A stretch of 64,000 bases of DNA from Asterias amurensis (lineage: Eukaryota > Echinodermata > Asteroidea > Forcipulatida > Asteriidae): positions 5,223,501 to 5,287,500 of the forward strand of contig NC_092660.1 of NCBI RefSeq assembly GCF_032118995.1, in the 5' to 3' direction. Made by a program: the position numbers and the translations under genes. A model generated the notes under the pieces. It made no database searches. It had not been told where the DNA came from and saw only the letters and a list, made by a program, of their open reading frames with translations. Within the stretch, counting starts at the first letter, position 1; the number at the start of each line of letters is the position of its first letter. Shown here one piece after another: positions 1,803 through 41,610 of the stretch.

Positions 1803-2157
1803 TTACTTCTTCTACGTCTTCTCTGCGTTGATCGTCATCGGGATGTTGAATGGCCTCATCCTGCTCCCCGTAATCCTCTCTCTGATCGGCCCCCCAGCCG
1901 AGGTACGCCCACTGAACAACGCCACCCGACTCACCACCCCGACCCCACCTCCTACACCGCCGATGGAGAGGAGCAGTGCCTCCATGCAGGGCCGGCAGCG
2001 CCCGGGCAGAAGGAGAGGCTGGGAGGACGAATACAACGGGTCGCAGTCGTCTGTTGGCGACAGCGCCATGTATCGTGGATACGGCGGAGAAAGGATCGAG
2101 GTTCATCCACCTGAGGTGGTTGTGCAGACGATGTGCCATGAACCAAGAAGACAAGAG
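1803..2157 (+). CDS. ptch: Patched, penultimate coding exon
   Basis: This exon encodes the last transmembrane segment and the start of the cytoplasmic tail of Patched, the 12-pass Hedgehog receptor that represses Smoothened. The acceptor is 'atcatttcag' ending at 1802 and the donor is gag|gtaggg at 2158. It reads YFFYVFSALIVIGMLNGL, then LILLPVILSLIGPPAEVRP, which is the diagnostic Patched block (hydrophobic helix, GVLNGL-like turn, LLPV, then GP-x-EV). A proline/threonine-rich linker follows (PTPPPTPP), then a charged tail. The exon starts in the third codon position and ends in phase 0. Dispatched and NPC1 are relatives, but the GPP-AEV stretch and the tail motif in the next exon favour Patched. 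Confidence 0.93.
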
Positions 2158-2627
2158 GTAGGGAAAAGTTCAGGGCACCCTTCCAAGAAAGTCCAAATGA
2201 ATTTTAACTGGTTTTTAAAGGCAGATGCATGTAGAAAAAGTCCAGGGCAATCTACCAAGAAAGTCCTAATTCATTGTAACTGGATTTCAAAAGGCATGTG
2301 AAAACTAAGATCACAAAACACCCCTCAAATTTAATCAAACTTAATCAGATTTTATGACTAGAGATTTTTAGTTTGTGTAGCTATTTTCAAATCGGATCTG
2401 AATTTGAAGACTTATGTGTTTTTAATTAAAAGGGAAATCCCCTCTAAACCCTTATGATAATTTAAGCATTAGTTTAAGATCGATCAATGCATTTGAAGTA
2501 AAACTTTAGCTACCTTCTAAAGGTACTTTGAAAAAAGTTACTTCGCATTCCTTATGTTTTAGTTTGAACACTTCGGATTAATGCACAACATTTAATTCTG
2601 TATTTTTCCCCCTGCTTTTTCTCACAG
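2158..2627 (+). other. Patched last intron
   Basis: A 470-base intron with donor gtaggg and acceptor 'tttttctcacag'. No other feature is visible. A reading frame runs from the upstream exon into it as far as 2301 only because no stop occurs earlier. Confidence 0.85.
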
Positions 2628-10699: not shown

Positions 10700-10858
10700 A
10701 TGGCATCCGAACTCTTGAAACAGAACCGTCTCCGCTGGGATTTAACTCCAGAGGACATCAAAACCAAAGCAGAAGAATTGATAAAACAATGTAAGGCGGT
10801 GTACGATGCTGTTGGCTCACTCAACAACGATGCCCTCAACTATGAAAATACTCTGCAG
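10700..10858 (+). CDS. thop1: M3 peptidase exon 1
   Basis: Encodes [20 protein letters not shown] onward, 53 codons ending ...YENTLQ in phase 0, donor cag|gtaaag. The RWDLTPEDI motif is at the start of the mature M3A fold. Confidence 0.93.
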
Positions 10859-13800
10859 GTAAAGTTTCCGTCGGAGTCCGGCCCTTTAATTTATTTTGCG
10901 CTGACATCATTCTCCGTTTATTTCCGACATAGCACAATTCTGTTTACAACAGAATAAGGCTCTATGTTTTCATAGACCTTGTCGCCAATCTTTGTGACTG
11001 ATTTTGCTGAATGGCCAAACAAAAGGCGTCATCATCCTGGGCAGTACAGAGTGAAGAGAGTCTAATTATTAATTAACCCGTACGGACTACGGGACCGTAT
11101 AGTATAGTGCATTGCCATGGCATGTTGTCATTTTTCGTAGAATTGTCAGAATTTGTACGCACTGGTCATCGTAGCCCCACTTGTGTGGCCAAGGCTAGCT
11201 GAATCCTTAGCCGTATGTCCATACCATTTCCTTATGCAGCTAAGAAACAACCAAAAGTGTAAAACTCTGGGGCCTCCCCTACCATACGAGCCACTCAGCA
11301 TGCAGTATAATATAAAGTAATATATAAACCGGCTGTATTTGTTCACCTAACTCTTGTTTACTTTGTGTGTACTGAATAGTCAAAAAAGAAAATATTTTAG
11401 AAAGAAATTTTTAACGATAACTTTGCTACCTTTCTCCTACTCTAATTTCCTCGATTTGTACACGGCGCAGCCATCTTGGAATATGATATGCCAATCAGCA
11501 TGACATCATCGGCACAGCTAACATGGACAAAATTATTCCCGAAAATATGTCAAAGTTCTGCACTGGCGATGTCATCAACATATGTACTGATTGATAGTGT
11601 GAGCCCCAGCAGTGCGCATGGCTTTGAAGTTTGAGTACAGTGCTGCAATTGGCATTATCTTGCCGTTTTTCGCTGTCAACTGGTTAGTGCCGTCAACTCG
11701 CCTTCATTCAACTCCTCAAATATACATTTAAAATCCAGCAGGCATAACACTTTAAAGTATTAAAGTTCAAATAGAATTTTTATCAGTTTCTGGTAAAATT
11801 TCGGTAAAGAAATTGAACTTTTTCCCTGCGAAACAAATATTTATAAGCAGCAAGGCCGTCTGCCCCCATCTTGCTTTATTCACAGACTTGAACACTATGG
11901 ACAACAGAGGGCGCTCTCCAGCATGCATGGAAAATAGTCTAGGCACAAGACGTCAATGCACGGTACCGCATAGTTCCGCGTCGTGTAAATTGCTCGCTGA
12001 CTAATAAGTGGTTGGTTGACGTGAGTTGACTGTGATTTGGCTGCATTGGTAGACCGCCAGTGATCAATGCAAGGAAGTGTTTACACGGAAGTTAGTGCGC
12101 GACGTGGGATGGGAAATGTCAGTTTCAATTTTATTTTCACAAAATATGAACACATTATCATTAATGGCCCACATTAGTGGCAAAGCCCAAGTCTATAATT
12201 TATATAATTTACCATTGACAATTTTTTTTTTAAAGTTTCTTCAATTCAATTCAATTTAATTTTATTTGTCCCACCATGTAGGAAATTCTATTTGAATACA
12301 TGCAAAACCGAAAGAAAAATAAATAACACACGATCATAAATAAACTACTGGAACTATTAATTAATCAGAAAACTACATTACTAATAAACCACAATTTAAT
12401 TATGCTGAAAACTACATCTAATTTTTAGTTCTTTTTAAGATGTATACAATTTAGGTAATACTTTGTTGTATACCTTAAAGTGACAATTGATTAATTCAAG
12501 AAAACAGCCAAACAAATTGTGTGTTTTTTTTCTCTATTATTACCATCCAGGCTCTTGCTAACAATGATTGTGAGTACGGCGTCCATCGTAACATGCTTGA
12601 TTTCCCTCAGCATACATCTCCGGATAAAGCAATGAGAGAAGCAAGTACTGAAGCCGATAAGAAACTCTCTGACTTTGATGTAGAAATGAGGTAAGGTCGA
12701 GACTGGAATCTAGGTGGAAAAACCTTATGACTACAGGGCGTGTAGCTCAGGATAATTATTCGGAAACAATTGTTTGTATAATACTAGAATTGAAATTAGA
12801 AGAAAACTTATGGGTGCACAGTTTACAGGCACTGGGCACTATTGGTGTTTACTCAAAATAATTGTCAGCATAAAAAACTTACTTGGTAACGAGAAATGGA
12901 GAGCTGTTGATAGTATAAAACATTGCGAGAAATGGCTCCTTCTGAAGTAATGTAATTTTTGAGAAAGAGCTAATTTCTCACTCAAATATCGAAAGACATC
13001 ACTGCAGGCAAGAAGCCTTTCATTAGGCATCAGAAAGCACACAAATAATGTGCAACAAGGGTGTTTTTTTCTTTCAATATTCTCTGGAAGTTTGACGACC
13101 GATTGAGTCAAAATTTTCACAGATTTGTTACTAATGCAAGTTGGGATACACCAAGTGAGAATACTGGTCTTTGACTTGAAATTACTACATCATGCAACAA
13201 TTTGCTGTAGGCCTATGTAGGCTTCCGCTGCTTTGTCTGCGGCTCAGTTTCCATACATGTGTAGGTTAAAGATGCTATGTCAGATTTTTGGCCAATTTGA
13301 CCCAAAAATTTTGATTTAAAATTCAATAGGTATTTTGATGGGGGTCGAGAAAGTTACAAGCTTTCATTTGAGCCATTGTTCGAAAAAGTCTGCCAATTAT
13401 TAGTAGCAGTGAAAAAAAGTGTTAAAAATTAGTTTTTGTCGGGATCCCGACAATATATCACGTGACCAATTCTAATGTGTTTTATGAGAAGCGTTTTACA
13501 TTTTTGTCATGGTTCCTGACCATTAAAAGTAAAAGTTAGAGTGGGTGATACTCATTGAACTACCATTCACTCAAAAAAATCTATTTTTTGATGTTTGGGG
13601 CCAAAAATCTGACATAGCATCTTTAAGTTTTAGCTTCCAGATTCTCATGGCCAAACTAAAAAAAGAATTTGCAAAACTAACATGGTCAGCCATTTTCAAA
13701 TTGGCGTGGTGTTTTGGTTCATGACGTGTAAGGAAACTGTGCAATTTCGAGGTGTATTTGTGTGGATCATTATGTTATACTTTTAAAACATCTTTCTAAC

Positions 13801-16800
13801 CATACACAGTTTATAAAAAACGGTTACATAGACCAACTTGGTCGATCCAAGGCACTGTGTCCTTTTAATAAGTGAAATTTGAACCTCAAACAAACTTTGT
13901 TCTACCCCTTCATAGCATGAGACAGGATGTGTTTGACAATCTCATGGCCTACCAAGAGAAGACCGATGTCAGTAAGCTGAAGCCTGAAGCTAAGCGCTAC
14001 CTGGAGAAGTTGATTAAGCTAGGACGCAGAAACGGTAAGGTAGCTCACTCTATACTTTAGAGTGTCGTGTTTCAAATGGTAGTCAAAACGCTAGAAAAAG
14101 GTTATAAGACACTATTTATTTGATAATTTTGTTCATCATCAAGACACATGTGTGGCCCTTCCATAGACCTTATACTCAGTACGCGCATGTTAGGAGTGGA
14201 GTGAGGTGCATGCTGGTCTAGCTAGCAATCAAGTTTGATCTCTAGGTAGACCAGCATGCACCTCATTCAACAGTTATTGCTTGCGCCATGGGTTTTTGCG
14301 AAAAGGTCTATTATGGTAAAACAGTCCAACTTGAAAATCTAGGTATTTTATATAAGATACATTGTAAATTGTTGGTTAATTAAGGGCATTTCTCCATTTC
14401 AAAATTTCAAAGGCATGGGCCTAATGAATGTGAATATAACTTGCCTATCTTGGCCTCTTCTTGCCATTTCATCTAGGCAAAACACCTTATCCTCTTTACT
14501 TGTTTTTTTCTCTTCAAATTGTCAATTTCAATGTTTTGCCATAAAAGGCTGCACGATTCTTGAATAATTTTGGGTCCCCCACGTCAAACTGACCCAGGCC
14601 TGATACCTAATTACCTTCATGCCCCTTGGTCAATGCCTTGGTGCCCTTGCCCTTTCAAAAACAAAGCATACAGGCCTGACTGTTCTGTTGCTGTTTTCTT
14701 TCTCTGTAGGTTTGCATCTACCCAAGGATGTACAAGACAAGGTGAAGGCCTTGAAGAAGCGTGCTAGCGATATTGCCATTGACTTCAACAAGAATCTTAA
14801 CGATGAGAACACAATACTGGAGTTTACTGAGGAGGAACTAGGTAAGGATGACTGCGGGGGGTTGCTTTTTGTGGAGTGCCGCTGTAGGAAAGGAGGCAAT
14901 GTTAGAGAGAGAAGTGTAAAACCCTTGGCACAGCCTCGCGGCTGATCTGGCCTGGGCCCCACCCTAAAAAACTGCCCTCTGTGCGAGATAATCGCGTAAG
15001 AATAGAAGCTTGTCCTTTGTTGGCTGTAGAGGATTGTAAAGGCCTCATGGCTCGGGCCTTGCCCGGACCAGGGGCTGATTTCACAAAGATCTAAGATTGA
15101 TCGTAACTGCAAAGCAATCGTAGTTGCTATGAAAATGGTAATGTCACAATACAAATTACTATGGTTATACTGAAAAATTGTCTTGCGATGAATTTTATTG
15201 CTTTGTGAAATCGGCCCCTGGCCCAGCTTATCAGCGGCAGGGCTGTGCCAAGGGTTTTGACCTTCTCCCTTAGCTTTGTTTTCTTTTAATCTGTTCAAGT
15301 AGAATTCCTCCAGTTTTTCCATTTTATGAAATTAAGCAAGTGCTACTTACAAGATTAATGACTGATCATCCGGTGACGCGGTTACATTTGTATGCTTCGT
15401 ATTATATTAAAAACAAATTCACTCAAAAGTGCAGCGAAATGCAGACCACTTTGCTATCATTATTTACACAAAACACAAGCAGTCACATCGTTTCATTCAT
15501 TCATTCAATTTTGCAGGCTTGCTGTCTTTGTTATTTTATTTCTTTGCGAGCTGCAGTTTAGGCCTGGGTGGCATGGTTGGCTTGTGCGTAAAGCGCTCGC
15601 CTCTCACCAAGGTGACCCTGGCTCGACACCCGGCCAGGGCCATACTTACTAAATTTGGCATTTGACATTTCAAATCTCTTTCCTTTTTACAGTGGGTCTT
15701 CCAGATGACTTTATCAAGAGACTAGACAAAGTAAGTTACTGAGACAGTTTTGCTCTTCCACTTCTCTTGATTGTGCTTTGATATTAGTGAATGAGTTTCT
15801 TTTAAAAATAAACGATGTACCGGGACCAGCAGCTGAAAAGGACTGGGGTTGATTTCACGAAGAGTTAAAACTAGTCTTATCTAGAGTTTGAATGAGTTAC
15901 TCGTCCTTATTAGAGAGGTTTTGCAAGCGTGCGAATACAGATATGGATATGATAACCGTATCCATTCGGGTCCTCCGTGTGTTGGATTTTGTTTTGCAAA
16001 CTATAGGTATGTTTCACTTGAGTGCGCTCACGCTCATCATGAGTATTTTTCTGACAAACATGACCGACAGAGACCCACTGTTTTAAACACTGCATTTTCT
16101 CATCATTTTGCTTGCAAAAGACTAGCAATATTCTATCTATATCAAGCACAATACCAGTGAAAGCAATTCAGAGTGAAATGTCTTTGATCTGGGACAAAAA
16201 TACAACTAAAAGTCTGCAAAACAGTATCCGTTTTTCTACGACGTGTATGCGCTCCCGTATCCGTTGCTAACGTGTGTGCAAAATACCATAGTCGCGGATA
16301 CGCATCACGTGAACACACAAAGTGTTGACTTATTGGTATCTGTGTATTTCCGTACACTTGCGAAACCTCTCTGTTATCTACTAGGACTAGTCCATTTGGC
16401 CACGACACGCCACTGTTAATGTCAGCTTGCTTATTACCATTAAGGAGAGAGTCACAATAATCTGTAAGTATTGGGAGAATCGCAAGTACAGGGCCTGAGG
16501 TACAATAAAACATTGTCGTCTTTTTGTCGCTTCCATCAACAGACAGCAGAAGGCAAGTGCAAAGTATCACTGAAATATCCCGACTACTTTCCAGCAATGC
16601 GTAAAGCACGTAACCCAGAGACTAGACGCAAACTGGAACTTGCCTTCAACTCAAGGTAGTATAAATATTCTAGAGCATACTCTACTAAATACTCAACAGA
16701 CTACTCTAGAGAACACAACATTTTCTAGCGATTTTTCTAATGAATACCCAACGTAATAATCTTCATATTATTATAGAGAATTCTCTACAGAACATTCTAC

Positions 16801-19800
16801 CAAACACTCAATAGAATATTCCACTAAATACTCAACATGACTCTTTGCAAACTGGTCTAGAAAATAGTCAACTAAATAGTCAACAGAGTGCTCAACAAAA
16901 TACTCTAAAGAACACTCTTCAAAATATTCTAGATGTTACTCAACTGAATACTCAACATAATACTCTCTAACATTTTCTACAGAATGTTCTACAGAATATT
17001 CAACTGAACACTCAACAGAATATTCTACTCAATACTCAACAGAACACACAACAAAACATTCCAGACACTACTTCACTCAATACTTTACTAAAAAATAAAA
17101 AATATTGAATTCAAGATTTTACCTTTTTCCTTCTTGTTCTATAGTAGTTGATGTGATTTTAAAAAGTTTTCACGGATTGGTATTTTATTGCAACTTAAGA
17201 TATGTTGTGTGAGTTGGTGAACATTTTTAACTGTTGAATTGATTTGGTTTCAGATGCAAGGAAGAAAACACGAAAATCATGGAGGAGCTTGTTGAGATTC
17301 GTCAAAAGGTAGAAACATAAAATATACAAGAGTTTAAATTTGTAAAAGTTTTTTTAAAACCCTGCTGCACAAGTTAATTTAGCTTAAAGCTTGGACTGCT
17401 TGAACTTTGATGCGAATTTACAAAACAAATTGGCATAGTGTACTGGAGCAATTTGACCTCACCCCCAAACAAACAATTAAATGAAAGCAAGTGACATAGG
17501 TTCATACAGCTGCTTAAGCAGAACATACTACTGAAGTGTTTCCTGCTTAGTCGAAATAAGCTGGCTACCAGTCATGTGACATGTGACATGGCAAGTTGTT
17601 GGTGGAAAACCTTATTCTGGTTAGCATAATTCTGTTGTGCTTAAGCAGGTTTATGACTTTAGACCCTGGACCCAATTTCATAGCGCTGTTTATTCAGAAA
17701 ATATTGCTTAACAAATTTCTGCTAAGCAACAATAAGCAGGATATCAGTCCCCATAGATGCTACATGTAAAATTGTATCTTAGCTGGTAATCTTTTTCTGG
17801 TAAGCATAATTTTGTTGTCCCTTGCTAGTTTTTGTGTTTTAAAAGTAGCTCTATGACATTGAACACTGGCTAGCAGAGAGACTGTTGAATTTGTATTTGT
17901 ACTTAACGTCTCTGTCTCCTTTTGATTCTAGTTGGCGGATCTTCTTGGCTATCCAACCCATGCTGCTTACATCTTGGAGATGAGGATGGCCAAGACACCT
18001 GAGACTGTCGCCAAGTTCCTCAAGGATCTCACTGAGAAACTCAGGGTACTTCAGACTTCCGAACTGGAGACTTTCAAAGCCTACAAGAAAGAGGAGGTAC
18101 GTAAAAGACAGGCATTGAAATATTTTGACACCCGTTTCATACAGCGACTCTAGGTCGACCCAAGTAAATTTTGGATCACTGCGACCTGGGCCAAATTTCA
18201 TGGCTCTGCTGAAATTCATCACTTGCACATAAGCAGATAATGTTGATCGTAAGCCAGCATTTGGCGGTTAGCAGAGTCATTTGGCCCAGCAGATGTCTCT
18301 ATTTCTGACAGCTTACCGTGCGTGAAATGAAGCTGTATTGCCGACGGATGTCCGATGATCCGTTCTCAAAGATTGCCGATGACTTTTGCCGGGTGTTTGC
18401 CGTGGATTCAGCTAATTTCTGACACCATGTTCTAAAGACGGCAGGACTCCAGTAGTAGCATTTTCTGCAAGTGGTTTATTCCCAGCCCATGACATCATCA
18501 TACAGCAAGGCTACGGTGGCCTATTAATGCCACTCCATAACACACATGTGATGATAAATGACCCACTTGGAGTATTTTACATGACTTTTTATTTTGTCCC
18601 TCTCTTTGATCAGTGTGAGAAGTACAAGTACCCGTTCAACAACACAATCGATCTATGGGATATGCGTTACTACATGAACATGGCGGAGGAGCGACAGTAT
18701 TCCATCGATCATAACAAACTCAAGGAGTACTTTCCCCTGGAGGTGGTCACTAAAGGTCTGCTGGAAATATATCAGGTATGAAGGAGAATAGTCAACAGAA
18801 TTAGAAATACAAAAACGTTTCAACCCTAGTAGAGTCTTTCTGGAAGGCTATTTGCTAGGGTCAAACGTCAGGCCATTAACTTTTTTTTTTTGCATTTATA
18901 CCATCGGTCCATTTGGTTGGTAAGAGTTTTTTGCAACAGCTACTTCTATTTTCTCAGAAAAGGAAAAAATAATAGACGGTCAGAGCACACTGATCTAAAC
19001 GTCGAGCAGACAACCGGCTCTTCTAAGAGCCACCACTACTCACAATTAAGAGATTGTTTACATGGTGTCACCGCAAAGCTTTCTTGCCAACTCTCCCTCA
19101 TTCTGCAGAAAATTCCATGAATATAAACCAATCTTTTCATGCGTTGATGAACGAATTAAACAAGATTCCTGATTATAGAAGCTTTTTTCCCATTTAAAAA
19201 ACTGTAGTTTATCTATCTGATTGTTGGCACGGAATGACCACACCAGCTTGCTTTGCGCAAGCTGTTACTGTGTAACATGAAAAAGTCTATCAACCTCAAA
19301 TGGCATGACATCAACATACATGTTATTTATTTTTAATTGTTGTCATTTGTTTTCAGGAACTCCTTGGTCTGAAATTTGAGGAGATTAAGAAAGCGGAAGT
19401 ATGGAACGATGACGTCACAATGGTAAAGACAATGTCATTCATAATTAACCGTTTCAAGAACTCTTTTCACAGGCAATTTTGGAAGATTTTACGATCTGTT
19501 TATAAGGTTCCTGCCAGTAACAATTCTCAAAGTAGAGGAAAAAGCATATGAAAACCCCCAAATCACTTCTGCTTATTGTGATTTGACCATGAACATTTTA
19601 GGTAAAAAACACTGGAGAGCTGTTGACATTGTTAAAAAACGACCTATGAAGTATGTAATCTGTTTTAGAGAAGGAGGTAATTTTTCACCTGTTTGAATCT
19701 GAGAAAGGTTCAAGGTCAGGTCAAAGTGCCTAATTCTAAGCAACAAGGGTGTTTTTTCTTTCAGCAGTTTCATGCAACTTTAAGCCCAATAATTGAGCCT

Positions 19801-22800
19801 AAATTTTCACAAGTTTGTTATTTTCTGCAGACGTTGGGATACACTGAGTGAGGAGGATACTGGTCTATGACAATTCACAAAAGTATACCCTGCCCTTGAC
19901 GCTTTGCATAATGTTTCATCAGTATTAACAATTTGTTGTTTGGTTTGGATCTTTCAGTTCAGTGTGACGGACAAGGAATCAGGTACCTTCATGGGGTTCT
20001 TTTACCTGGATCTTTTTCCACGAGAGGGCAAATTTGGTCATGCTGCCTGCTTCGGTTTACAGGTAAGTAATTTTTCTGGACAAATAGTGTCACCCAGTGT
20101 CACTATATATTTTTTCAAGCATAATTCATCTATTATTCGCAACCACAGTGGCTGATTATGAATGGTCAGACAGTAGGAGGGTTAACTCAGACTGTGTAGA
20201 TACACTCACCACTTGATATTATATTGCAGGCTGGCGTATTACATGTATTCAAAACCACAGTTGGACGATATTACATGGTCAGACAGTAGGAGGGTTGACT
20301 ATGTACTGTTTTGATGCATTCATCACATGATATCATTTTGAAGGCTTGCATAATTTACCTATCATTGAAACCACAGTGGATGATATTGAATGGTTGGACA
20401 GTAGGAGGGTTGACTATGTACTGTGTAGTTACACTTATCACTTGATATCATGTAGACGATGTGACCCGTGACATCTCATGTTTACAAAAGATCCACAGAG
20501 CCTGGACTTCCTGCAGGCACGATTTGTACACAGCTCAATGGAAAAAAAACATAAAATATTATATTCAAAGGGGGCACATTTCAAAACTTGTCCAGCATTT
20601 ACTCTCATAACTCTTGGATTAATGTGGAAATTATGTCACAAAATGTCAACTTTCCCACGGGACCAGTGTAGTGTCTTGCCTGCCAGAATACTCAAAGATT
20701 GTACAAGCTCACACTTATTGTAAACAGAGTTCACATTGCATGCTTGAATAGTTTATCATTGAAAACCACAGTGGACGATATTGAATGGTTAGGCAGTAAG
20801 AGGGTTAACCTTGAGTTGACATAGATAAGGAAATAAAAGAGTTGAGATGGTTTCTGGAATATAGAAGGCCTGTTGAACAGGGGTAATTAAAGTGTCCAGC
20901 AGCTGATTTCACGAAACGCTAGGATTAATTCTATTTGAGTTAGGACGAGTTGCTGGTCCTAACTTAGGATGGGTTCAATGCGTCCTGATGTCTGCGGAGA
21001 CAGAACTAAACTTGTCTTTAGATTGATCCTAAGTTAGAAAGAGTTTGGTGAAATCACGCTTTGGTATTTTGTTTTAAAATACCCTGTAAAGCTTATTTTT
21101 TATTATGTATGATTATATTCTGATGTTAAAATTCTTTGTTGACAGCCTGGGTGTTTGGCAGCGGATGGGAGCCGTCAGGTTGCTATAGCAGCCATGGTTG
21201 CCAACTTTACTAAACCCACAGCAGACGCTCCGTCACTACTCACTCACGATGAGGTAAATCCCCCATCATCATCATGCCCACCCTCCCTTACACCTTTGAC
21301 CATCTCACACACCCATGATTAGGTTTGAAAGTCAGAAAATCAAACATGAAATTGAGAGGATTAACAAGAGAGGACTTTCTGTTATTGATAATAGTGGCCT
21401 CTTGTGTAGCGATCAATTCTGTCACTCCCTTGCAAAAGGTTTTACATCACATGGGCTATTTTTCAAAACAATGTTTTGCTTCCTTATCTGGAAATTTGTT
21501 TAAAAGAACAATACTCGGAAATACGATAATTTTGTCACTGTTCGGAGGATGTCTGGAGCAGGTTACTTGAAAAAACATTGATAAAACTTGTGTAAAATTA
21601 CCTTTTATAGCATGTTTAGGGCCCAATTTCATAGAGCTGCTTAAGCAGAAAATATTGCTTGACACATTTCTGCTTAGCAGGATACCAATCACAAATTGAA
21701 CATGTGACATGGTAGTTTAGCTAGTAACCTTATATTTTGGTAAGCATAGAATTTGTAGTGCTTATCTGCTTTTTGTTCTAAAGCAGCTTTATGAAATTTT
21801 GCCTAGAGCTTGAGTCCAGTGCTCTTCTCTGCACGGCCACAACACACTACTAAGAAGTTATTTGGCTGCTAACCCTATTCTGATAAGCAAAATTGTTTTG
21901 TGCTTAGCTACTTTATAAGCTTAAAGGAACACGTTGCCTTGGATCGGTCGAGTTTGTCTTTGAAAAAGCGTTTGTAACCGTTTGTTATCAAATGCATATG
22001 GTTAGAAAGATGTTGTAAAAGTAGAATACAATGATCCACACAAACATGCCTCAAAATTGCATGGTTTTCCTTTTACATCGTCGGATAACACGGTCCGCCA
22101 TTTATGGGAGTCAAATTATTGACTCCCATAAATGGCCGACCATGTTAGTTTTCAAAGAAAAAGGAAAACCACACAATTTCGAGGCAAATTTGTGTGGATC
22201 ATTGTATTTTACTTTTAAAACATCTTTCTAACCATATATGCATTTTATAACAAACGGTTACAAATGCTTTTTATATACCAACTCGTTCGATCCAAGGCAA
22301 CGTGTTCCTTTAAACTAGAGCAGCTCTCCAAAATTGGGCCCAGGTCTGATTCCAGCCTCTCTCTAATTTTGTGTATAAATCTCCCCCAGGTTGAAACCTT
22401 CTTCCATGAGTTTGGTCACGTGATGCACCAGCTTTGTGCCCAGGCGGAGTTCAGAATGTTCAGGTACATTTACTCCTCATTAATGTTCCCTTTTTACGTT
22501 TTGATTCTTTACATGTCTACGCTAGGTGGAGACATTCTTTCATGAGTTTGGCCATGTCATGCATGACATTTTGGGACAGACTGACTTTTGTTATTTCAGG
22601 TCTGTATATCAATTTGTAAATCTTTTTTATATTTTTTTTAAATAACCAATATTTCCATGTTCTGATGAACAAATTTGAAAATCTCCCTGATTCTGGAAAT
22701 GTGATTTCTAAATGTCTTCCCTGCAAGTCCAAGCTTGGCAGCTCTTCCTGTGTAAAAAACAAGTCCTGGGCCTAATTTCATGGCTCCGATTATTGCCGTT

Positions 22801-25800
22801 CTTTGCTGATGTGCAAGCACCAAGCTTCTGCGCTAGCTGTGTAAAAAGCGAAGAATGCATAGTAACATGAAGTACACATGCACACAAGCCAAAATTTCAC
22901 TGCTAACCCTCGAAATACGCTTGCCGTAAGCACATAGTTCTCTGCTTCCATAAGCGTCTATTTTTTGCTCACAGTAAGCAGAGGTCCTGTTTTATAGCTA
23001 TTTTCTAAGCAAGTGATGTCACAAGTCACATCCATTGATTTGGCCCTCGGGGGAAATAAGATTTTATCATAAATAATATTAACTAATAAATAATACTTAC
23101 TTTTCCATCACAGTGGCACGCGTGTTGAGCGGGACTTTGTCGAAGCGCCCTCCCAGATGCTTGAGAATTGGTGTTGGCAGGCAGAGTCTCTACGTCGGAT
23201 GTCAGGTCACCACAAAGAGGGGACGCCCATTCCGGACGAGATGGTAGAGAAGCTAGTCAAGGCTCGCAACGCTAACGCCGGAGTCTTCAATCTTAGACAG
23301 ATTCTACTGGGGACGTTTGATCAGACCATTCACACCAGCGCTAAGGTTTGTACAGTGAGAGAGGCTCTTAAAGACATTGGACACTATTGGTAATTGTCTA
23401 AGACCAGTCTTCTCACTTGGTGTATCTCAACATATGCATAAAATAACTAACCTGTGAAAATTTGAGCTCAATTGGTCGTCGAAGTTGCAAGATAATATAT
23501 TTTAAGAAAAAACACCCTAGTCACACTAAGTTGTGTGCTTTCAGATGCTTGATTTCAAGACTTTAAATTCTAAATCTGAGGTCTCTAAATCAAATTTGTG
23601 GAAAATGAATTCTTTCTAGAAAACTACGTTTCTTCAGAGGGAGCCGTGTCTCACCATCAACCTCTCCCCTTTACTCATTACCATGTTGAAAGGTTTCATG
23701 CTAATAATTATTTTGAGTAATTACCAATAGTGTCCAGTGCCTTAAAGGTGAAAAAACAACATCAATTCAAACTGTGCTGCTTGACTCATTTTTGCTGTTG
23801 ACTACTCTGTCGATGCCACTACTCTCATTGCAAATATTTACTGGTTACCCATTCATCAGCTTATTTCATTTTAAAGTCCTATGGGGAGTATTCAGACTAT
23901 TCACACCAGCGCTAAGGTATGTACAGACAGAGGCTCTGGAATCAAGGGCAGTCTGTTGGCGTCGTGGTAGCTTGACTTGCCTGGACTTTCTGCAGGCATG
24001 TTTTGTACACAGCTTAAGGTCTGACATGCGTGCACGTATGCTTGGCGCGCGCCGCAGAGTTGTGCAGAAAGGCATTGGAGAGCCCCACGTGTTCTTTCTC
24101 ATATGTGTGTCGTGGGCAGAGCCTACTGGATCGGCCTATTGAAGACAACTTGAAAACTTACATACTGTATCATGGAGAATGAATCGTATGATTGTATCAA
24201 CTTTTGATATAGCCTTGCTCAATGCAGTCGAATTATTCACTCCGAAAAAAGACCGCCGCTGTATAAAAACCCACCCGTATTCACTGTGCGTAAAACCCAC
24301 CCGTATTCACTGTGCGTAACATCGCACGACACGATGCCCCCGTACACTATCCGCATGTGGAGGCGTCAGGCCGACAGCCTTGTAGGATCTGTGTTGAAGC
24401 CACTGACCTCATTACTATAATAAGCGAAGAGTTCCCACGGTCAGCTCATTACCATAATGCCCGCGAAAGACAAGACATGTTTACCTCACACACCACCACC
24501 AATGATAGGGTCCAAAGGTCGTGATAAGGGAAGTGCGTGATTGGACGTCAAAATGAATAATTCATTTGCCTCACATCCTGTGTTGTCTGATAGGTCTGAC
24601 GAACGATATACATATTCATGAGCTGCATACTAGCATATCCTAGAGCCCCCCCAATTTCGTCCACTATTGGAATTTTTTCAATACAACACATTAAAACGGG
24701 AAGATACAGACCCGACAAGGCTGTCGGCCTGACGGCCTCCGCATGCGGTTAGTGGTGTACGAGTGCGATGACTTGTGTGAACAGTATTCGTGCGATGTGA
24801 CAGTGTGTATACGGGTTGGTCATTCGGTGTGATCGCACACACCATGCACAGGGTATACGGCGGGTGGGTTTACAGCTGCGTCTTTTCGGAGTGAATAATG
24901 CGACTGCCTTGAGCAAGGCTACTTTTGATATGAAGAAAGGGGACACATCTCAAAACTTGTTCAGCATTACTTTTATACCTCTTTAAAGGCAGTGGACACT
25001 TATGGTAATTACTCAAAATAATTATTAGCAGAAAACCTTACTTGGTGACGAGTAATGGGGAGAGGTTGTTGATATAAATATTGTGAGAAACGGCTCCCTC
25101 TGAAGTGACATAGTTTTTGATAAGGAAGTAATTTTCCACGAATTTGATTTCGAGACCTCAGATTTCGAATTTGAGGTCTCAAAATCAACCATCTAAACGC
25201 ACACAACTTCATGTGACATGGGTGTTTTTCTTTCATTATCATCTCGCAACTTCGATGACCAATTGAGCTCAAATTTTCACAGGTTTGTTATTTTATGCAT
25301 ATGTTGAGATACACCAAGTGAAAAGACTGTTCTTTGACAATTACCAATAGTGTCCAGTGTCTTTAATTTATATGAAATTTATGACACATTATGTAAGATT
25401 TTCCGTTTGACCAGTGCAGTATCTTGCCTGCCAGAAAAATTATGGACAATGTCACTCTATTTGTAAACAAAGGTTACATGGCCGAAGCGTGTTCCACATC
25501 ATCAGTTGAAGAGGCCTTGGACACAGACAAAAATGAACTCTGGCTCAGTTTTTGTAATTGTGCCAACCCGGCAATAATGACAGGGATGTTGTGATATCTT
25601 GTTTTATTATTCTAATCTTGCCTTGAAAGATGAAAATTACACATCCATGTCAACTGTGAATTTTCAAATTTTAACGAAACCTTTTTTTTTTTGGGGGGGG
25701 GGGGGGGGGGGAGAATCAGGGGCGGGTCCAATCGTTTCCAATTTCCTTGTTTTATTTGTCTGTACTCTTAGGCGGACACCACCTCCATATATGCCAAGAT

Positions 25801-28357
25801 ATCTCAGGAAACGCTCGGTATACCAGCTACGCCAGGTACCAACATGTGCGCTTCATTTGGCCATCTAGCTGACGGGTACGATGCCCAGTATTATGGTTAC
25901 TTGGTGAGTGATGGTTTATGTCAAATGAAAAATCATTTTCTTTTCATGTCACCCTTCCAATAGGCCGACACCAAAGCGGTCTTTGCAAGGCTTTCAAAAG
26001 AAATTCTTGGGATACCGTCTACGCCAGGTACCAGCAAGGTTGCCTCATTCGGTCATTTGTCCGATGGCTATGATGCTCAGTACTATGGGTATCTGGTGAG
26101 TTTTAAGTTTTGGCTGAATTTTGCGCCTTTTTTTTTTGCTAGACTGGTCTTTGACAGTTATCAATGCTTTATGTGTGCTTTAAAAGTTTTGTCAATATAA
26201 AGTCACAAGAAATTCCAATGGCTATGATGCTTACTACTACGGGTATCTGGTGAGTTTAAAATTATCCGATTCGGCTATATTTTGCCTTTTTTTTTTTTTG
26301 CTTTGCTAGACTGGTCTTTGACAGTTATCAATGTTGTCTGTGTGCTTTACAGACATGTGAGACTTCCTCTTTTCAGCTGTTTTCCTCTTTTTTTGATTTT
26401 GATTTTCCTCTTTTTCCTTAACTTACTTTGTACAAAAGTATAGGAAAATTGTCTTTTCCTCTTTTTTTGCACGCCTGGTTTTCTCTTTTCCTTTTTTTTT
26501 CATGGCTAGTTACTCACATGCCTGGCTTTAACAATCACTGTGTCAATGATGAAGGAAAAGTGATTGAGTTTGTAAAATTCAAGATCTGCAAAGAGGTTAC
26601 TCAATGTTTACCTGTTATTCATTCTCTGTACCAAAAAAATGTACCCAGGATTGTGGCTGGGCACTTTCATACACAGCTTAACCGTAGGCAAATTTTTGTG
26701 CTAACTTTAGCAGAAAAAGGTGTTAAATGTAAGGGTATTTCACAGGTTAACAAGAAATTGGGCAACCAGCTTGCGCTATTATGTCATTCATTTTCATGCA
26801 GTAGGCACTGGAATTGTTTGCGTGCCTTTTCATGTGCCTATAGTTAGCACCGCTATGTAAAGGAAGTCACACAGTCAGCACAAAATTTAAAGTTAAAGGC
26901 AGTGGACACTATTGGTAATAACTCAAAATAATTATTGGCATAAAACCTTACTTGGTAACGAGTAATGGGGAGAGATCGGTAGTATAAAACATTGTGAGAA
27001 ACGGCTCCCTCTGAAGTGGAGTAGTTTTCGAGAAGGAAGTAATTTTCCACAAATTTGATTTCGAGACCGCAAGTTTAGAATTTGAGGTTTCGAAATCAAG
27101 CATCAGAAAGCACACAACTTCGTGTGACAAGGGTGTTTTTTCTTTCTTAGTTATCTTGCAACTCCGACGACCAATTGAGCTCAAATACAGCAAGTGAGAA
27201 GACTGGTCTTTGACAATTACAAATAGTGTCCACTGTCTTTAAGCAGCTCTATTTTCATTCTTTGGGCGCTATTTCCAAGATGCAAAAGTTGGCAGCTCTG
27301 ATGAGCATGCATAGAACTCTGTTCCATGCAGTATTTTTGAGTTCGATTGATGGTTTTTTGTGTTGCAGTGGAGTGAGGTGTACTGTATGGACATGTTCTA
27401 CTCACGGTTCAAGAAGGAAGGGATCATGAACCCCAAAGTGGGAGCAGACTACCGCAAGTTCATCCTTCAACCAGGGGGTTCCATTGTAAGTTGATCATGC
27501 AGCCTTTTTCTTTAAAGGGTTTTGATACCTTTTGTAGATCAAGATTTAGGCCATCACATGAATCCTTACTGTGAATGAAGATGTATGTAAATGTATGTTA
27601 AATTTGCATCGGGATAAAAAAATATTTATTTTGGTTTAATCCATAAACAACGATGCATGTTGGCACTGTAAACTTGAGTTTCCCATTTTTATATTTTTTT
27701 TCCACAAAACTCTGGGAAAGTACTGAGTAAACAGTGCCAACACACATTGGTTTATACAGGTAAAACCAAAATGATTTTTTTATCCCCTTTGCAAATTTTA
27801 CATTTATTAATTCATTGCAATACCTGCTGCTAAAACATAGGATTCGAACTGCCTCTAGCTACTGGGCAATCTCAGTGGATTAGTTGGTTCGACAATGCTC
27901 CAGAATTGAATTGTTTGAATCCAATCCGAGTAATATGCCTGTGATTTTTTTTCACAACTCTGAAGCCTTTTTAGGGCATCTGAGAGCAGACAAAATTGTG
28001 CTACAAGGGAAATTTTTCTTTTCCTAGTTCTCTTGCAACTATGATGACCAACTGAGTAATTTTTTTTACAGATTTTTTATTTTATGCATTTTGAGAAACA
28101 CCAGGTGAGAATATCAGTCTTTGAGGTGTTCAGTGCCTGTAAGTTTGGTACCATTGCAATCTCTGTCGTCAATCTTGGTGAAGGGAAGCTTTGGGTCAAT
28201 GCCAAAGCTTTTGTCGGATGTTATTAAGAGATAACAACAACCACCACTCTACTTTTATTCACTTCCTTAATAGGATGCCATTGATATGCTGAAGAACTTC
28301 TTGGGACGAGAACCGCAGCAAGAATCTTTCCTGATCAGCAAAGGCTTGAAAGTGTAG
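10700..28357 (+). CDS. thop1: Thimet oligopeptidase/neurolysin-type zinc metallopeptidase (M3), 17 coding exons plus alternatives
   Basis: A soluble zinc endopeptidase of family M3A that cleaves short peptides (neuropeptides and proteasome products in known relatives), acting in the cytosol and sometimes secreted or mitochondrial. Exons join in frame to 666 codons; mammalian THOP1 has 689. Constitutive exons: 10700-10858, 12551-12690, 13916-14034, 14710-14841, 15693-15730, 16543-16655, 17254-17308, 17932-18096, 18614-18775, 19357-19422, 19958-20062, 21146-21253, 22390-22463 (13a), 23114-23345, 25772-25903 (15a), 27369-27485 and 28274-28357. Zinc ligands fall at H460, H464 (HEFGH) and E489. 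Loop tyrosines Y592, Y596 and Y599 are 13 residues offset from the mammalian Y605, Y609 and Y612. The start ATG is followed by no clear targeting peptide. Alternative exons 13b and 15b are listed separately. THOP1 and NLN are vertebrate paralogues, so this may be the single co-orthologue of both. Confidence 0.95.
12551..12690 (+). CDS. thop1: M3 peptidase exon 2
   Basis: Acceptor 'taccatccag'; encodes [20 protein letters not shown] then [20 protein letters not shown]. The block '[19 protein letters not shown]' is an M3A signature of the helical domain. Ends in phase 2, donor gtaagg. Confidence 0.95.
13266..13626. mobile_element. TTAA MITE, family 3 (intron 2)
   Basis: A 361-bp copy of the element at 9633-9992, same orientation, with both terminal inverted repeats and TTAA ends. 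It lies inside intron 2, which also has a degraded family 1 copy (about 12,825-13,185) and a family 2 remnant (about 13,690-13,870). Confidence 0.85.
13916..14034 (+). CDS. thop1: M3 peptidase exon 3
   Basis: The first base completes a serine codon split from exon 2. Then [20 protein letters not shown] and ...[12 protein letters not shown]. Ends phase 1, donor gtaagg. Confidence 0.93.
14710..14841 (+). CDS. thop1: M3 peptidase exon 4
   Basis: [20 protein letters not shown] then [20 protein letters not shown]. '[17 protein letters not shown]' is conserved in the family. Ends phase 1, donor gtaagg. Confidence 0.93.
14916..15261. mobile_element. Nested pair of inverted-repeat elements in intron 4
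   Basis: The outer element runs from 'gtaaaacccttggcacagcc' to the inverse 'ggctgtgccaagggttttgac'. Inside it (15,070-15,221) is a smaller element bounded by 'ggggctgatttcacaaag' and 'ctttgtgaaatcggcccc'. Both are non-coding. Confidence 0.7.
15561..15645 (+). repeat. tRNA-derived SINE head in intron 4
   Basis: 'tggcttgtgcgtaaagcgct' resembles a tRNA A-box region, and 'ctggctcgacacccggccag' 35 bases on resembles a B-box arm. The anticodon stem is not tRNA-like enough for a functional tRNA. It ends 47 bases before exon 5. Confidence 0.5.
15693..15730 (+). CDS. thop1: M3 peptidase exon 5 (38-nt microexon)
   Basis: The acceptor 'tcctttttacag' and the donor aaa|gtaagt bound 38 bases that complete a valine and then read [12 protein letters not shown], matching the GLPEDFL segment of the family. 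Skipping it would shift the frame. Confidence 0.9.
15912..16372. mobile_element. Inverted-repeat element in intron 5
   Basis: 'agagaggttttgcaagcgtg' at the left and 'cacttgcgaaacctctct' at the right are inverses. The interior has further paired words ('cgtatcc'/'ggatacg'). It lies inside an older 'gatttcacgaa' element that begins near 15,848. Confidence 0.65.
16543..16655 (+). CDS. thop1: M3 peptidase exon 6
   Basis: [20 protein letters not shown] then [17 protein letters not shown]; 'VTLKYPHYFPxxKxCxxPETRRxxExAFNSR' is a strong family block. Phase 2 end. Confidence 0.94.
16656..17095 (+). repeat. Short AT-rich minisatellite in intron 6
   Basis: About 20-bp degenerate units built from 'aatactcaac' and 'agaatattct' are repeated some 20 times directly after exon 6. 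It is the only tandem array in this part of the gene. Confidence 0.7.
17254..17308 (+). CDS. thop1: M3 peptidase exon 7
   Basis: Completes the split arginine, then [18 protein letters not shown], as in the 'CKEENTxIL' family motif. Phase 0 end, donor gtagaa. Confidence 0.92.
17932..18096 (+). CDS. thop1: M3 peptidase exon 8
   Basis: [20 protein letters not shown] then [17 protein letters not shown], 55 codons. Typical 'LLGFxTHADYVLEMxMAK' block. Phase 0 at both ends. Confidence 0.94.
18614..18775 (+). CDS. thop1: M3 peptidase exon 9
   Basis: [20 protein letters not shown] then [20 protein letters not shown], 54 codons; 'I-x-WDMRYYM' and 'LKEYFPxxVVTxGLLxIYQ' are family hallmarks. Confidence 0.95.
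19357..19422 (+). CDS. thop1: M3 peptidase exon 10
   Basis: [20 protein letters not shown] then TM, 22 codons, phase 0 at both ends. It precedes the catalytic half. Confidence 0.92.
19958..20062 (+). CDS. thop1: M3 peptidase exon 11
   Basis: [20 protein letters not shown] then [15 protein letters not shown]; '[23 protein letters not shown]' is the family block in the catalytic subdomain. Phase 0 at both ends. Confidence 0.95.
20145..20815 (+). repeat. About 110-bp tandem repeat in intron 11, split by another repeat
   Basis: Units sharing 'gacagtaggagggtt' and 'cacttgatat' occur three times between 20,145 and 20,455. A fourth partial unit is at about 20,755-20,815. The intervening piece (about 20,480-20,730, 'ctggacttcctgcaggca' to 'cttgcctgccagaa') is a dispersed repeat with relatives near 23,970, 24,935, 25,390 and 30,270. 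Confidence 0.65.
20901..21060. mobile_element. MITE with 'gctgatttcacgaaac' ends
   Basis: A 160-bp element bounded by 'agctgatttcacgaaac' and 'gtttggtgaaatcacgct'. The interior carries repeated 'cctaacttagga'-type words. A partial relative is near 15,848. Confidence 0.65.
21146..21253 (+). CDS. thop1: M3 peptidase exon 12
   Basis: [20 protein letters not shown] then [16 protein letters not shown], 36 codons ending in phase 0 immediately before the HEFGH exon. '[23 protein letters not shown]' is a near-invariant family block. Confidence 0.96.
21921..22313. mobile_element. TTAA MITE, family 2 (intron 12)
   Basis: A 393-bp hairpin element with TTAAAGGAACACGTTGCC at the left and its inverse at the right, ending 76 bases upstream of exon 13a. 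Its central dyad is 'cggccatttatg' plus inverse. Confidence 0.87.
22390..22463 (+). CDS. thop1: M3 peptidase exon 13a (HEFGH active site, first version)
   Basis: Encodes [18 protein letters not shown] then AEFRMF plus two bases of a serine codon, between acceptor 'ctcccccag' and donor cag|gtacat. HEFGH holds two zinc ligands and the general-base glutamate. This version matches the usual 'HQLCxQAEF' of THOP1. Length 74 nt, starts phase 0, ends phase 2. It must be used alternatively to 13b because including both breaks the frame. Confidence 0.95.
22526..22599 (+). CDS. thop1: M3 peptidase exon 13b (alternative HEFGH exon)
   Basis: A second 74-nt exon starts 62 bases after 13a: acceptor 'acatgtctacgctag', donor cag|gtctgt. 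It encodes [18 protein letters not shown] then TDFCYF plus the same two bases of serine. The first 13 codons are protein-identical to 13a yet differ at eight synonymous sites. The last part diverges ([11 protein letters not shown] against [11 protein letters not shown]). Phase and length equal 13a, so either one can join exon 12 to exon 14. Skipping both or using both shifts the frame. The donor gtctgt is weaker than that of 13a, so 13b may need activation or be tissue-restricted. A dying duplicate is the other option, but the absence of replacements argues against it. Confidence 0.8.
23114..23345 (+). CDS. thop1: M3 peptidase exon 14 (third zinc ligand)
   Basis: Begins by completing serine, then [21 protein letters not shown]489 in DFVEAPSQ is the third zinc ligand. 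It continues through [19 protein letters not shown]. 232 nt, phase 0 end, donor aag|gtttgt. Confidence 0.95.
23368..23745. mobile_element. TTAA MITE, family 1 (intron 14)
   Basis: A 378-bp copy in inverse orientation beginning 22 bases after exon 14: TTAAAGACATTGGACAC and the inverse GTGTCCAGTGCCTTAA. Confidence 0.85.
23878..23916 (+). pseudogene. Relic copy of the 3' end of exon 14
   Basis: 'actattcacaccagcgctaa' followed by g|gtatgtacagacag repeats the last 20 or so bases and donor of exon 14 ('accattcacaccagcgctaa', then g|gtttgtacag). Upstream similarity fades. No acceptor is seen, so it is a duplication relic rather than an exon. Confidence 0.65.
24200..24931. mobile_element. MULE-like inverted-repeat element with 11-bp target duplication
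   Basis: The 710-bp element (24,211-24,920) has ends 'agccttgctcaatgcagtcg' and the inverse 'cgactgccttgagcaaggct', with further pairing around 'attcactccgaaaa'. It is bracketed by an exact 11-bp direct repeat 'acttttgatat' (24,200-24,210 and 24,921-24,931). Target duplications of 9-11 bp with long inverted repeats are typical of Mutator-like elements. No transposase ORF. It interrupts an older dispersed repeat. Confidence 0.8.
24983..25366. mobile_element. TTAA MITE, family 1 (intron 14)
   Basis: A 384-bp copy with both termini (TTAAAGGCAGTGGACAC and GTGTCCAGTGTCTTTAA), inserted in the same older repeat as the neighbouring MULE-like element. Confidence 0.85.
25682..25711 (+). repeat. T11-G19 homopolymer junction 60 bases before exon 15a
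   Basis: Eleven T followed by nineteen consecutive G. The RNA could form a G-quadruplex right upstream of the alternative exon pair. It may also be a place of assembly error. Confidence 0.8.
25772..25903 (+). CDS. thop1: M3 peptidase exon 15a (Gly/Tyr substrate loop, first version)
   Basis: A 132-nt exon, phase 0 at both ends, acceptor 'tgtactcttag', donor ttg|gtgagt. Encodes [20 protein letters not shown] then [25 protein letters not shown]587, Y592, Y596 and Y599 correspond to the loop residues that close over substrate in mammalian THOP1. The PGTNM matches the usual family sequence. Confidence 0.94.
25964..26095 (+). CDS. thop1: M3 peptidase exon 15b (alternative loop exon)
   Basis: A second 132-nt exon, 60 bases after 15a: acceptor 'acccttccaatag', donor ctg|gtgagt. 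Encodes [20 protein letters not shown] then [24 protein letters not shown]. 31 of 44 residues match 15a. The ten-residue [10 protein letters not shown] end is identical in protein but differs at seven synonymous positions. Unlike 13a/13b, using both would keep the frame and add 44 residues, but a 60-base intron between them probably prevents joint splicing. The main change is TNMC to TSKV in the loop before the catalytic histidine and tyrosines. Confidence 0.85.
26220..26373 (+). pseudogene. Truncated third copy of exon 15 (3' end only)
   Basis: 'ggctatgatgct' to 'gggtatctg|gtgagttt' repeats the end of 15b and about 110 bases of its intron at an offset of 154 bases. It reads [10 protein letters not shown] (Q to Y). 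No in-phase acceptor precedes it, so it is a recent tandem duplication scar and not a third exon. Confidence 0.75.
26893..27242. mobile_element. TTAA MITE, family 1 (intron 15)
   Basis: TTAAAGGCAGTGGACACTA at the left and GTGTCCACTGTCTTTAA at the right, 350 bp, with a small internal deletion near 27,187. Lies 126 bases before exon 16. Confidence 0.85.
27369..27485 (+). CDS. thop1: M3 peptidase exon 16
   Basis: [20 protein letters not shown] then [19 protein letters not shown], 39 codons, phase 0 at both ends. The WSEVxSMDMF block follows the YGYL loop directly in all M3A members, confirming the 15-to-16 join. Confidence 0.95.
27590..27870. repeat. Dispersed repeat related to 32.6-33.2 kb
   Basis: Inverted 'tttggtttaatccat' / 'ggtaaaaccaaaat' words and the 'cataggattcgaactgcctctagctac' region (given here in parts) relate this intronic piece to the three copies near 32.65-33.24 kb. 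Probably SINE-derived. Confidence 0.5.
28274..28357 (+). CDS. thop1: M3 peptidase exon 17 (C terminus)
   Basis: [20 protein letters not shown] then ISKGLKV and TAG at 28,355-28,357. 'FLGRxPxQxAFLxSKGL' is the canonical family end. Confidence 0.95.
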   Translation, partial: DAIDMLKNFLGREPQQESFLISKGLKV

Positions 28358-40029: not shown

Positions 40030-41610
40030 AGTAATTGTTCACGAATTTGAACTCACTGCTACACTCCAACCACCAGGCTATCCATGTGACATCACAGGCT
40101 GTGCTGTCTAGAACTCACGGCTTCACTCCAACCCAACCACTGCAGGCTATCCATGTGACAGCGACAGCACAGGCTGTGCTGTCTATAACTCACGGCTTCA
40201 CTCCAACCCAACCACTGCAGGCTATCCATGTGACAGCACAGGCTGTGCTGTCTAGAACTCACTGCTACACTCCAACCATGATAGGTCATCCACGTGACAG
40301 CACAGGCTGTCTAGAACTCACTGCTACACTCCAACCACCAGGCTATCCATGTGACAGCACAGGCTGTGCTGTCTAGATCTCACTGCTACACTCCAACCAC
40401 TGCAGGCTATCCATGGTGACTGCACAGGCTGCGCCGGCTAGAACTCACTGCTACACTCCAACCACTGCAGGCTATCCATAAGACAGCACAGGCTGTGCTG
40501 TCTAGAACTCACTGCTACACTCCAACCACTGCAGGCTATCCATGGTGACTGCACAGGCTGCGCCGGCTAGAACTCACTGCTACACTCCAACCACTGCAGG
40601 CTATCCATGTGACGGCACAGGTTGTGCTGTCTAGAACTCCCTGCTACACTCCAACCACGGCAGGTCATCCATGTGACGGCACAGGTTGTGCTGTCTAGAA
40701 CTCTCTGCTACACTCCAACCATGGCAGGTCATCCTTGGTGACGGCACAGGTTGTGCTGTCTAGAACTCCCTGCTTCACTCCAACCACTGCAGGTCATCCA
40801 TGTGACAGTACAGGTTGTGCTGTCTACAACTCACTGCTACACTCCAACCACTGCAGGCTATCCATGTGACGGCACAGGTTGTGCTGTCTAGAACTCACTG
40901 CTACACTCCAACCACGGCAGGCTATCCATGGTGACTGCACAGGCTGTCTAGAACTCACTGCTACACTCCAACCACGGCAGGCTATCCATGGTGACTGCAC
41001 AGGCTGTCTAGAACTCACTGCTACACTCCAACCACTGCAGGCTATGCATGTGACCGCACAGGTTGTGCTGTCTAGAACTCTGCTTCACTCCAACCATGGC
41101 AGGTCATCCATGTGACAGCACAGGTTGTGCTGTCTAGAACTCACTGCTACACTCCAACCACGGCAGGCTATCCATGGTAACTGCACAGGCTGTCTAGAAC
41201 TCACTGCTACACTCCAACCACGGCAGGCTATCCATGGTGACTGCACAGGCTGTCTAGAACTCACTGCTACACTCCAACCACTGCAGGCTATCCATGTGAC
41301 GGCACAGGTTGTGCTGTCTAGAACTCCCTGCTACACTCCAACCACGGCAGGTCATCCATGTGACGGCACAGGTTGTGCTGTCTAGAACTCTCTGCTACAC
41401 TCCAACCATGGCAGGTCATCCTTGGTGACGCCACAGGTTGTGCTGTCTAGAACTCATTGCTACACTCCAACTACTGCTGGCTATCCATGTGACGGCACAG
41501 GTTGTGCTGTCTAGAACTCACTGCTACACTCCAACCATGGCAGGTCATCCTTGGTGACGGCACAGGTTGTGCTATCAGGGAACTCACTTCAACGCTTCAA
41601 CTGCTGCAGG
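40030..41610 (+). repeat. About 64-bp minisatellite derived from module E1
   Basis: Roughly 25 copies of a unit containing 'ctgcaggctatccatgtgac', 'cacaggttgtgctgtctag' and 'aactcactgctacactccaa'. Some units lack about 7 bases (gtgctgt). The same words, in the same order, occur once in the E1 exon copies at 38.8 and 42.1 kb, so the array grew out of that sequence. Long frames through it are a by-product of few stops in the unit. Confidence 0.9.

Follow-up and report, generated by a model that had tools for sequence, protein, structure and literature searches.

Here we determined the exon structure of a peptidase gene in a 64-kb sea star window (the window being the whole stretch of DNA that was analysed, 64,000 nucleotides). 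Using the human thimet oligopeptidase sequence solely as a finder, we located a complete M3 (thimet oligopeptidase-like) gene at 10700-28357 on the plus strand, with AG/GT borders and an open frame giving a 666 aa product. The gene has 19 exons for 17 exon positions, and every border is AG/GT. Exons 1-6 of the gene model lie on the plus strand at 10700-10858, 12551-12690, 13916-14034, 14710-14841, 15693-15730 and 16543-16655, and exons 7-12 at 17254-17308, 17932-18096, 18614-18775, 19357-19422, 19958-20062 and 21146-21253. Exon 14 is at 23114-23345, exon 16 at 27369-27485 and exon 17, which includes the stop codon, at 28274-28357, all on the same strand. Positions 13 and 15 are each occupied by two tandem copies, described below, and the four isoforms that take a single exon 13 and a single exon 15 are each open and 666 aa long. 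Three long open reading frames, at 1648-2298 (plus strand), 14633-15331 (minus strand) and 16145-16621 (minus strand), were considered as genes and rejected, having no Pfam match at 0.001.

The protein assembled from exons 13b and 15b is identical at 660/666 residues to the thimet oligopeptidase-like isoform X3 of Asterias rubens (P0001), which places the window in Asterias or a very near relative. P0001 aligns end to end with human thimet oligopeptidase (TOP; 1s4b) at E 2e-278, and the Pfam family Peptidase_M3 (PF01432) matches it with 505 bits and P0002 with 506.7 bits. Residues His460, Glu461, His464, Glu489, His587, Tyr596 and Tyr599 are invariant in all 50 aligned relatives, and Tyr592 is kept in 49 of the 50. 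Glu489, carried by exon 14, we take to be the third zinc ligand, TOP Glu502, and His587 in exon 15 presumably corresponds to TOP His600. A large effect of TOP His600 on activity is described in the portion of PMC9266445 that concerns this residue. Judged by its sequence, the gene is a member of peptidase family M3 (thimet oligopeptidase/neurolysin), with peptide hydrolysis as its predicted activity.

The zinc site of this enzyme is encoded twice. Exon 13a (22390-22463) and exon 13b (22526-22599), both on the plus strand, each contain the HEFGH zinc site. As the preliminary description had claimed, they are 74 nt each, in the same phase and bounded by intact splice sites: both have AG/GT flanks and encode 24 residues with 2 nt left over, and the claimed spacing of 62 bases was confirmed as the intron at 22464-22525. 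The two copies are 67% identical in DNA over 72 nt. Their shared first 13 codons hold exactly the 8 nucleotide differences that had been counted, all synonymous, with 0 replacements. For a chance control, 13a was compared with 189 plus-strand segments of the form AG-74 nt-GT from the 64-kb window; 13b reached 68% identity, the next best segment 42%, and the best minus-strand segment 39%. This control ruled out 13b as a chance match.

In the dN/dS comparison between 13a and 13b, which the same description had proposed, synonymous sites proved saturated (pS 0.89), with the catalytic half of the exon unchanged. The full exon shows 8 residue changes where 14.8 were expected, and 0/20000 simulations gave as few without a stop. 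These simulations placed the observed nucleotide differences at random, under a simple model in which half of the changes are transitions. The second halves of the two exons had been said to differ and to place different residues on the helix after HExxH. They do differ, at 8/11 residues, but the helix placement fails beyond about the first three variable residues: in ortholog models the zinc helix spans 452-470, and the variable segment 468-478 forms the helix end, a loop and a short turn. With 3/11 residues in common, the two halves are divergent rather than unrelated; the possibility that the second half of 13b is unrelated sequence was also ruled out by its match to neurolysin. Codons 14-24 compared between the copies gave dN 0.75 and dS 0.92 (P 0.27), indicating no detectable constraint, and this counts against two selected zinc-site exons. 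The variable 11 residues are instead conserved between orthologs, those of 13b being identical in Asterias rubens and matching at 10/11 positions in the crinoid Antedon. The exon-13 peptide of 13a is identical in Acanthaster planci isoform X1.

Including both exons 13, or neither, shifts the frame, as had been argued, and premature stops follow in both cases. With both, the coding sequence is 2075 nt and stops after 547 residues; with neither, it is 1927 nt and stops after 458 residues. These stops would also suit an account in which both copies are translated and the arrangement serves to control the amount of enzyme, through decay of frameshifted mRNA, with the sequence differences between copies being drift. 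The same account would explain why the variable part of exon 13 has no detectable constraint between the copies. We regard it as very improbable, as the variable part is kept between orthologs (10/11 residues, Asterias versus Antedon 13b), which argues against drift, and the exon 15 pair is in frame either way and therefore cannot work so.

The exon 15 pair was absent from the preliminary description. Exon 15a (25772-25903) and exon 15b (25964-26095), both on the plus strand, are 132 nt each and in phase 0, with all splice sites present, and are separated by an intron of 60 nt (25904-25963). Exon 15a encodes the catalytic loop and 15b an alternative catalytic loop. The copies are 69% identical in DNA; among the 212 segments of the corresponding chance control, 15b scored 69% and the next best 36%. 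Synonymous sites are saturated here too (pS 0.82), and 13 residue changes were seen against 24.6 expected, with 0/20000 simulations giving as few without a stop. Both copies keep His587, Tyr592, Tyr596 and Tyr599. The loop changes from 15a to 15b include N580/S, M581/K and A589/S, and positions 580 and 581 are Asn and Met in 47/50 aligned relatives. Since each copy is 132 nt long, the reading frame does not enforce exclusivity at exon 15. In a translated search of the 64-kb window, no other exon turned up in a second complete copy.

Two further fragments display the appearance of unselected copies in this gene. The first, 15c (26214-26249, plus strand), reproduces the 3' end of 15b, donor included. 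Truncated, with the original acceptor and the 5' two thirds missing, it is probably a dead copy. It was rejected as a third alternative exon, as the sole in-frame acceptor would produce a 21-residue exon without a counterpart. The second is a dead exon-14 copy at about 23879-23926 (plus strand), which retains the 3' end, the donor and the start of the intron and is frameshifted by small deletions. The existence of such dead fragments in the gene gives some substance to the view that 13b and 15b are themselves non-functional duplicates or splicing noise. We find this view hardly credible. Both 13b and 15b span the complete exon, have an open frame and show saturated dS, whereas the dead fragments have been cut short or have lost the frame. 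Identical or 13b-type exons are also present in proteins annotated for Asterias, Antedon, Glandiceps and Ptychodera. Two narrower versions were also rejected: 13b as a decayed duplicate, given that it is intact, that dS is saturated and that isoforms exist in relatives, and an assembly duplicate in this genome, given that the same exons are present in other species' proteins.

Repeats were seen both within the gene and elsewhere in the window. A foldback element with long inverted arms lies in intron 12 at 21918-22316 and ends 73 nt before 13a; it could draw splicing signals near the alternative exons. Introns 14 and 15 contain a dispersed repeat (TTAAAGGCAGTGGACACTATTGGTAAT...) in either orientation, at 23368-23753, 24983-25366 and 26886-27250, and the copies flanking the exon 15 pair could pair together. 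Downstream of the gene, 51245-57616 is a 6.4-kb palindromic satellite with a 31-bp unit, of which about 51 copies are in one orientation and about 156 in the other, the flip lying near 52799. The 31-bp unit holds the octamer ATGCAAAT, which is matched exactly 39 times on one strand of the whole window and 86 times on the other. Related repeats of 21-23 bp lie outside the satellite in inverted orientation, at 50344-50989 and 57737-58351. A minisatellite at 40049-41588 has a 64-bp unit in about 24 copies.

We then considered how the splice sites of each pair could restrict their use. Within the pairs the introns measure 62 nt (exon 13) and 60 nt (exon 15), and no other intron of the gene is shorter than 514 nt. 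Splice scores were calculated from a small matrix built on the 13 to 15 single-copy sites of the gene itself. Donor scores are 7.51 for 13a, 5.93 for 13b, 4.02 for 15a and 5.67 for 15b, within a range of 3.97 to 10.46 for the other exons. Acceptor scores are 2.25, 1.42, 4.65 and 4.23 in the same order, with the other exons at 0.49 to 9.16. All of these scores fall within the ranges of the other exons. The exon-13 acceptors, close to the lower limit, fit regulated exons, yet they also count against strong use. By consensus matching, yUnAy branch-point candidates number six in the 62-nt intron, at distances of 9-48 nt from the upstream 5' splice site, and the terminal AG is the sole AG there; the 60-nt intron has two, at 15 and 43 nt.

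The sections of PMC7969005 on this subject put the steric threshold, below which both splice-site complexes cannot be recruited at once, at about 50 nt, and describe branch points under it as enforcing the choice between OGDH exons 4a and 4b. By analogy with the OGDH case, we infer a steric mechanism for the sea star gene. One copy of each pair would enter each mRNA, with the branch point in the 60-62 nt intron too near the upstream 5' splice site to allow splicing of one exon to the other. Exon 13 would have a second check, in that a mistaken choice there would also shift the frame.

The distribution of the exons among relatives was examined in a protein database clustered at 90% identity, in which sibling isoforms of other species are hidden within clusters. 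Since the clustering hides siblings in this way, absence of 13b or 15b in a given species is not readable from the clusters. Eleven ambulacrarian clusters (P0001-P0011) were among the best 120 matches of the first protein search. Intact 13b-type segments, with none of the disabling changes that the preliminary description had named as grounds for rejecting its claim, are present in 4/11 of these representatives, and the other 7 are Q-type. The carriers are Asterias rubens X3, Antedon mediterranea X2, Glandiceps talaboti X2 (DICGKTNMVFF) and Ptychodera flava X2 (DICGKPKLVFF). Asterias rubens X3 contains both 13b and 15b letter for letter. The NCBI "isoform X" proteins are predicted models, so that the isoform evidence is at the level of annotation. 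Glandiceps talaboti X1 and X2, each placed on a contig of equal length, differ at 7/667 residues, all at 468-477 within exon 13; on these grounds the two look like products of an alternative exon and not of a gene family. The Q-type protein P0007 (Lytechinus variegatus X1) has the segment QLCGHTKFRFF, which mixes 13a-type residues (Q, R) with 13b-type residues (G, aromatic) and could possibly be a converted or single remaining exon.

For exon 15 the comparison is narrower. The 15b type was found in 1/11 ambulacrarian representatives of the best-120 list, Asterias X3 itself, a point against our preferred reading. Over three best-120 lists, the Ser-Lys marker of 15b occurs in 1/213 proteins that have the loop motif, the motif being missing in 12/225.

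Within the same three lists, Asp directly after HEFGHVMH occurs in 6/225 proteins: four ambulacrarian, one fungal and one from a horsehair worm. Gly at the fourth place after this motif (471) also occurs in 6/225, and Asp together with Gly in 5/225 (the four ambulacrarian proteins and the fungal one). The combination of Asp468, Gly471 and an aromatic residue at 477 is limited to the four ambulacrarian proteins and is found in none of the other 221 of the 225 listed. The sequences point to an exon-13 pair older than the divergence of crinoids from sea stars. Probably it arose once, before echinoderms and hemichordates separated. The alternative is that echinoderms and hemichordates acquired their exon-13 pairs independently. 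Echinoderm and hemichordate 13b have 4-5/11 variable residues in common, no more than 13b has with the canonical exon of a mollusc, which counts against common descent, and because Asp468 occurs also in the fungal and horsehair-worm proteins, one of them with Gly471 as well, convergence is possible. We consider independent origins somewhat unlikely, as the trio of Asp468, Gly471 and aromatic 477 is confined to the four ambulacrarian segments among the 225 proteins. The best 120 of 7996 scored in a third protein search brought no additional 13b-type cluster from echinoderms or hemichordates. Taken together, anatomy, frame logic, selection and comparison favor the original proposal of two translated, mutually exclusive zinc-site exons, and the comparison with relatives is the strongest of these.

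Predicted structures of the orthologs were used to place the variable residues. The Asterias X3 model (13b and 15b) has a mean pLDDT of 92.9 and the Acanthaster X1 model (13a and 15a) of 93.0. For both models the top PDB match is thimet oligopeptidase, with neurolysin also best-matching. Their secondary structures differ by a residue or two at the ends of a few elements; since the two proteins (89% identical) also differ elsewhere, the models indicate tolerance of the exchanged segments rather than a clean swap test. Among solved structures, 13a is closest in sequence to thimet oligopeptidase and 13b to neurolysin (QTDF); in the structure-sequence search with 13b, its first codon, GTG, was read as M. 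The changes from 13a to 13b just past the zinc motif include Q/D at 468, A/G at 471 and M/Y at 477. Residue 477 (exon-13 residue 23), which is Met in 13a and Tyr in 13b, we take to be the substrate-channel residue Met490 of TOP.

The products of these exons should share fold and chemistry and would be expected to differ in the peptides bound and the positions of cleavage. According to their titles, the engineered structures 2o36, a thimet oligopeptidase with swapped specificity, and 2o3e each received the neurotensin cleavage site of the other enzyme. The second residue of exon 13 departs from wild type in both, being E in one and R in the other. This documented switch site is unused in the sea star gene, where 13a and 13b alike have Glu at that position. 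A 2007 specificity-swap study reportedly tested four channel sites, including TOP Met490 versus neurolysin Arg491, and the Met490 site is said not to have been needed for the neurotensin switch. Because residue 2 is unchanged and the Met490 site was reportedly dispensable, altered specificity of the sea star isoforms is reached here by reasoning.

The b isoforms may instead have reduced or redirected activity, for example by acting as a decoy that binds peptides or by partnering the a isoforms, and not a shifted specificity. Exon 15b alters the two positions that are Asn and Met in nearly all relatives aligned, and 13b alters the residue immediately past HEFGHVMH, which speaks for such a role. 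Against this, His460, Glu461, His464, Glu489, His587 and Tyr592/596/599 are all retained, and the confidence of the Asterias X3 model equals that of the Acanthaster X1 model. We consider reduced or redirected activity unlikely.

The reading that we prefer is that both pairs are mutually exclusive exons that retune the substrate cleft of one peptidase. This is probably correct, with the splicing behavior and the specificity deduced from the sequence and its comparisons. The choices at 13 and 15 may be independent, which would provide up to four enzymes. A broader version is more tentative, and we place it somewhat short of an even chance: that the gene is a combinatorial center in which independent choice at 13 and 15 yields four specificities, and that the zinc-exon pair is a trait of the ambulacrarian ancestor that achieves by splicing what in vertebrates falls to the paralogues TOP and neurolysin. 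What sets the gene apart is that two pairs fall on the catalytic core of one enzyme, with the exon-13 arrangement common to echinoderms and hemichordates. Splicing may here do the job of gene duplication. The isoforms would also offer natural, ready-made active-site swaps for the study of cleavage-site choice in M3 peptidases, and the first physiological place to look for their use may be the inactivation of echinoderm neuropeptides.

Mutually exclusive homologous exons are a well-known kind. Among the listed matches in open-licence PubMed Central papers, we found no alternative catalytic exon in an M3 peptidase, and two catalytic-core exon pairs in one peptidase gene are undescribed among the papers searched; the isoforms already exist as database predictions. 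The single paper naming THOP1 and mutually exclusive exons together (PMC6803439) concerns, in the passage that names them, an alternate-promoter event of human THOP1. In Volvox, passages of PMC4378016 describe mutually exclusive exons in a cyclophilin and exon skipping in a metalloproteinase, which are of a different kind. Substitutions of tandem duplicated exons are described for KHK, PKM, ACOX1 and CAMK2D in the relevant parts of PMC9741552, where the human set of such exons is reported to cover 14% of residues but 10.7% of functional (predicted ligand-binding) residues.

As far as those parts of PMC9741552 describe it, the human tandem duplicated exon set resembles the sea star pairs in that the homologous exons are adjacent, enter transcripts one at a time, are ancient and mostly keep their ligand residues. 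The human set is under-represented at ligand-binding residues, and the KHK pair includes one catalytic arginine (PMC9741552). In contrast, of the two pairs in the sea star gene one encodes the zinc motif and the other the His600/tyrosine loop, both parts of a single metallopeptidase active site. OGDH exons 4a and 4b, in the account excerpted from PMC7969005, are similar in having a short intron with branch points under about 50 nt, which in the sea star gene are consensus candidates; unlike OGDH, there are two such introns in one gene. Thimet oligopeptidase and neurolysin have the same fold as the sea star enzyme, and the Asterias X3 model is 61% identical to 1s4b across the aligned part of the structure, with a TM of 0.95. 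Among the PDB chains matched by the two exons, the thimet oligopeptidase-like and neurolysin-like segments belong to two proteins, whereas here they appear as alternative exons of one gene.
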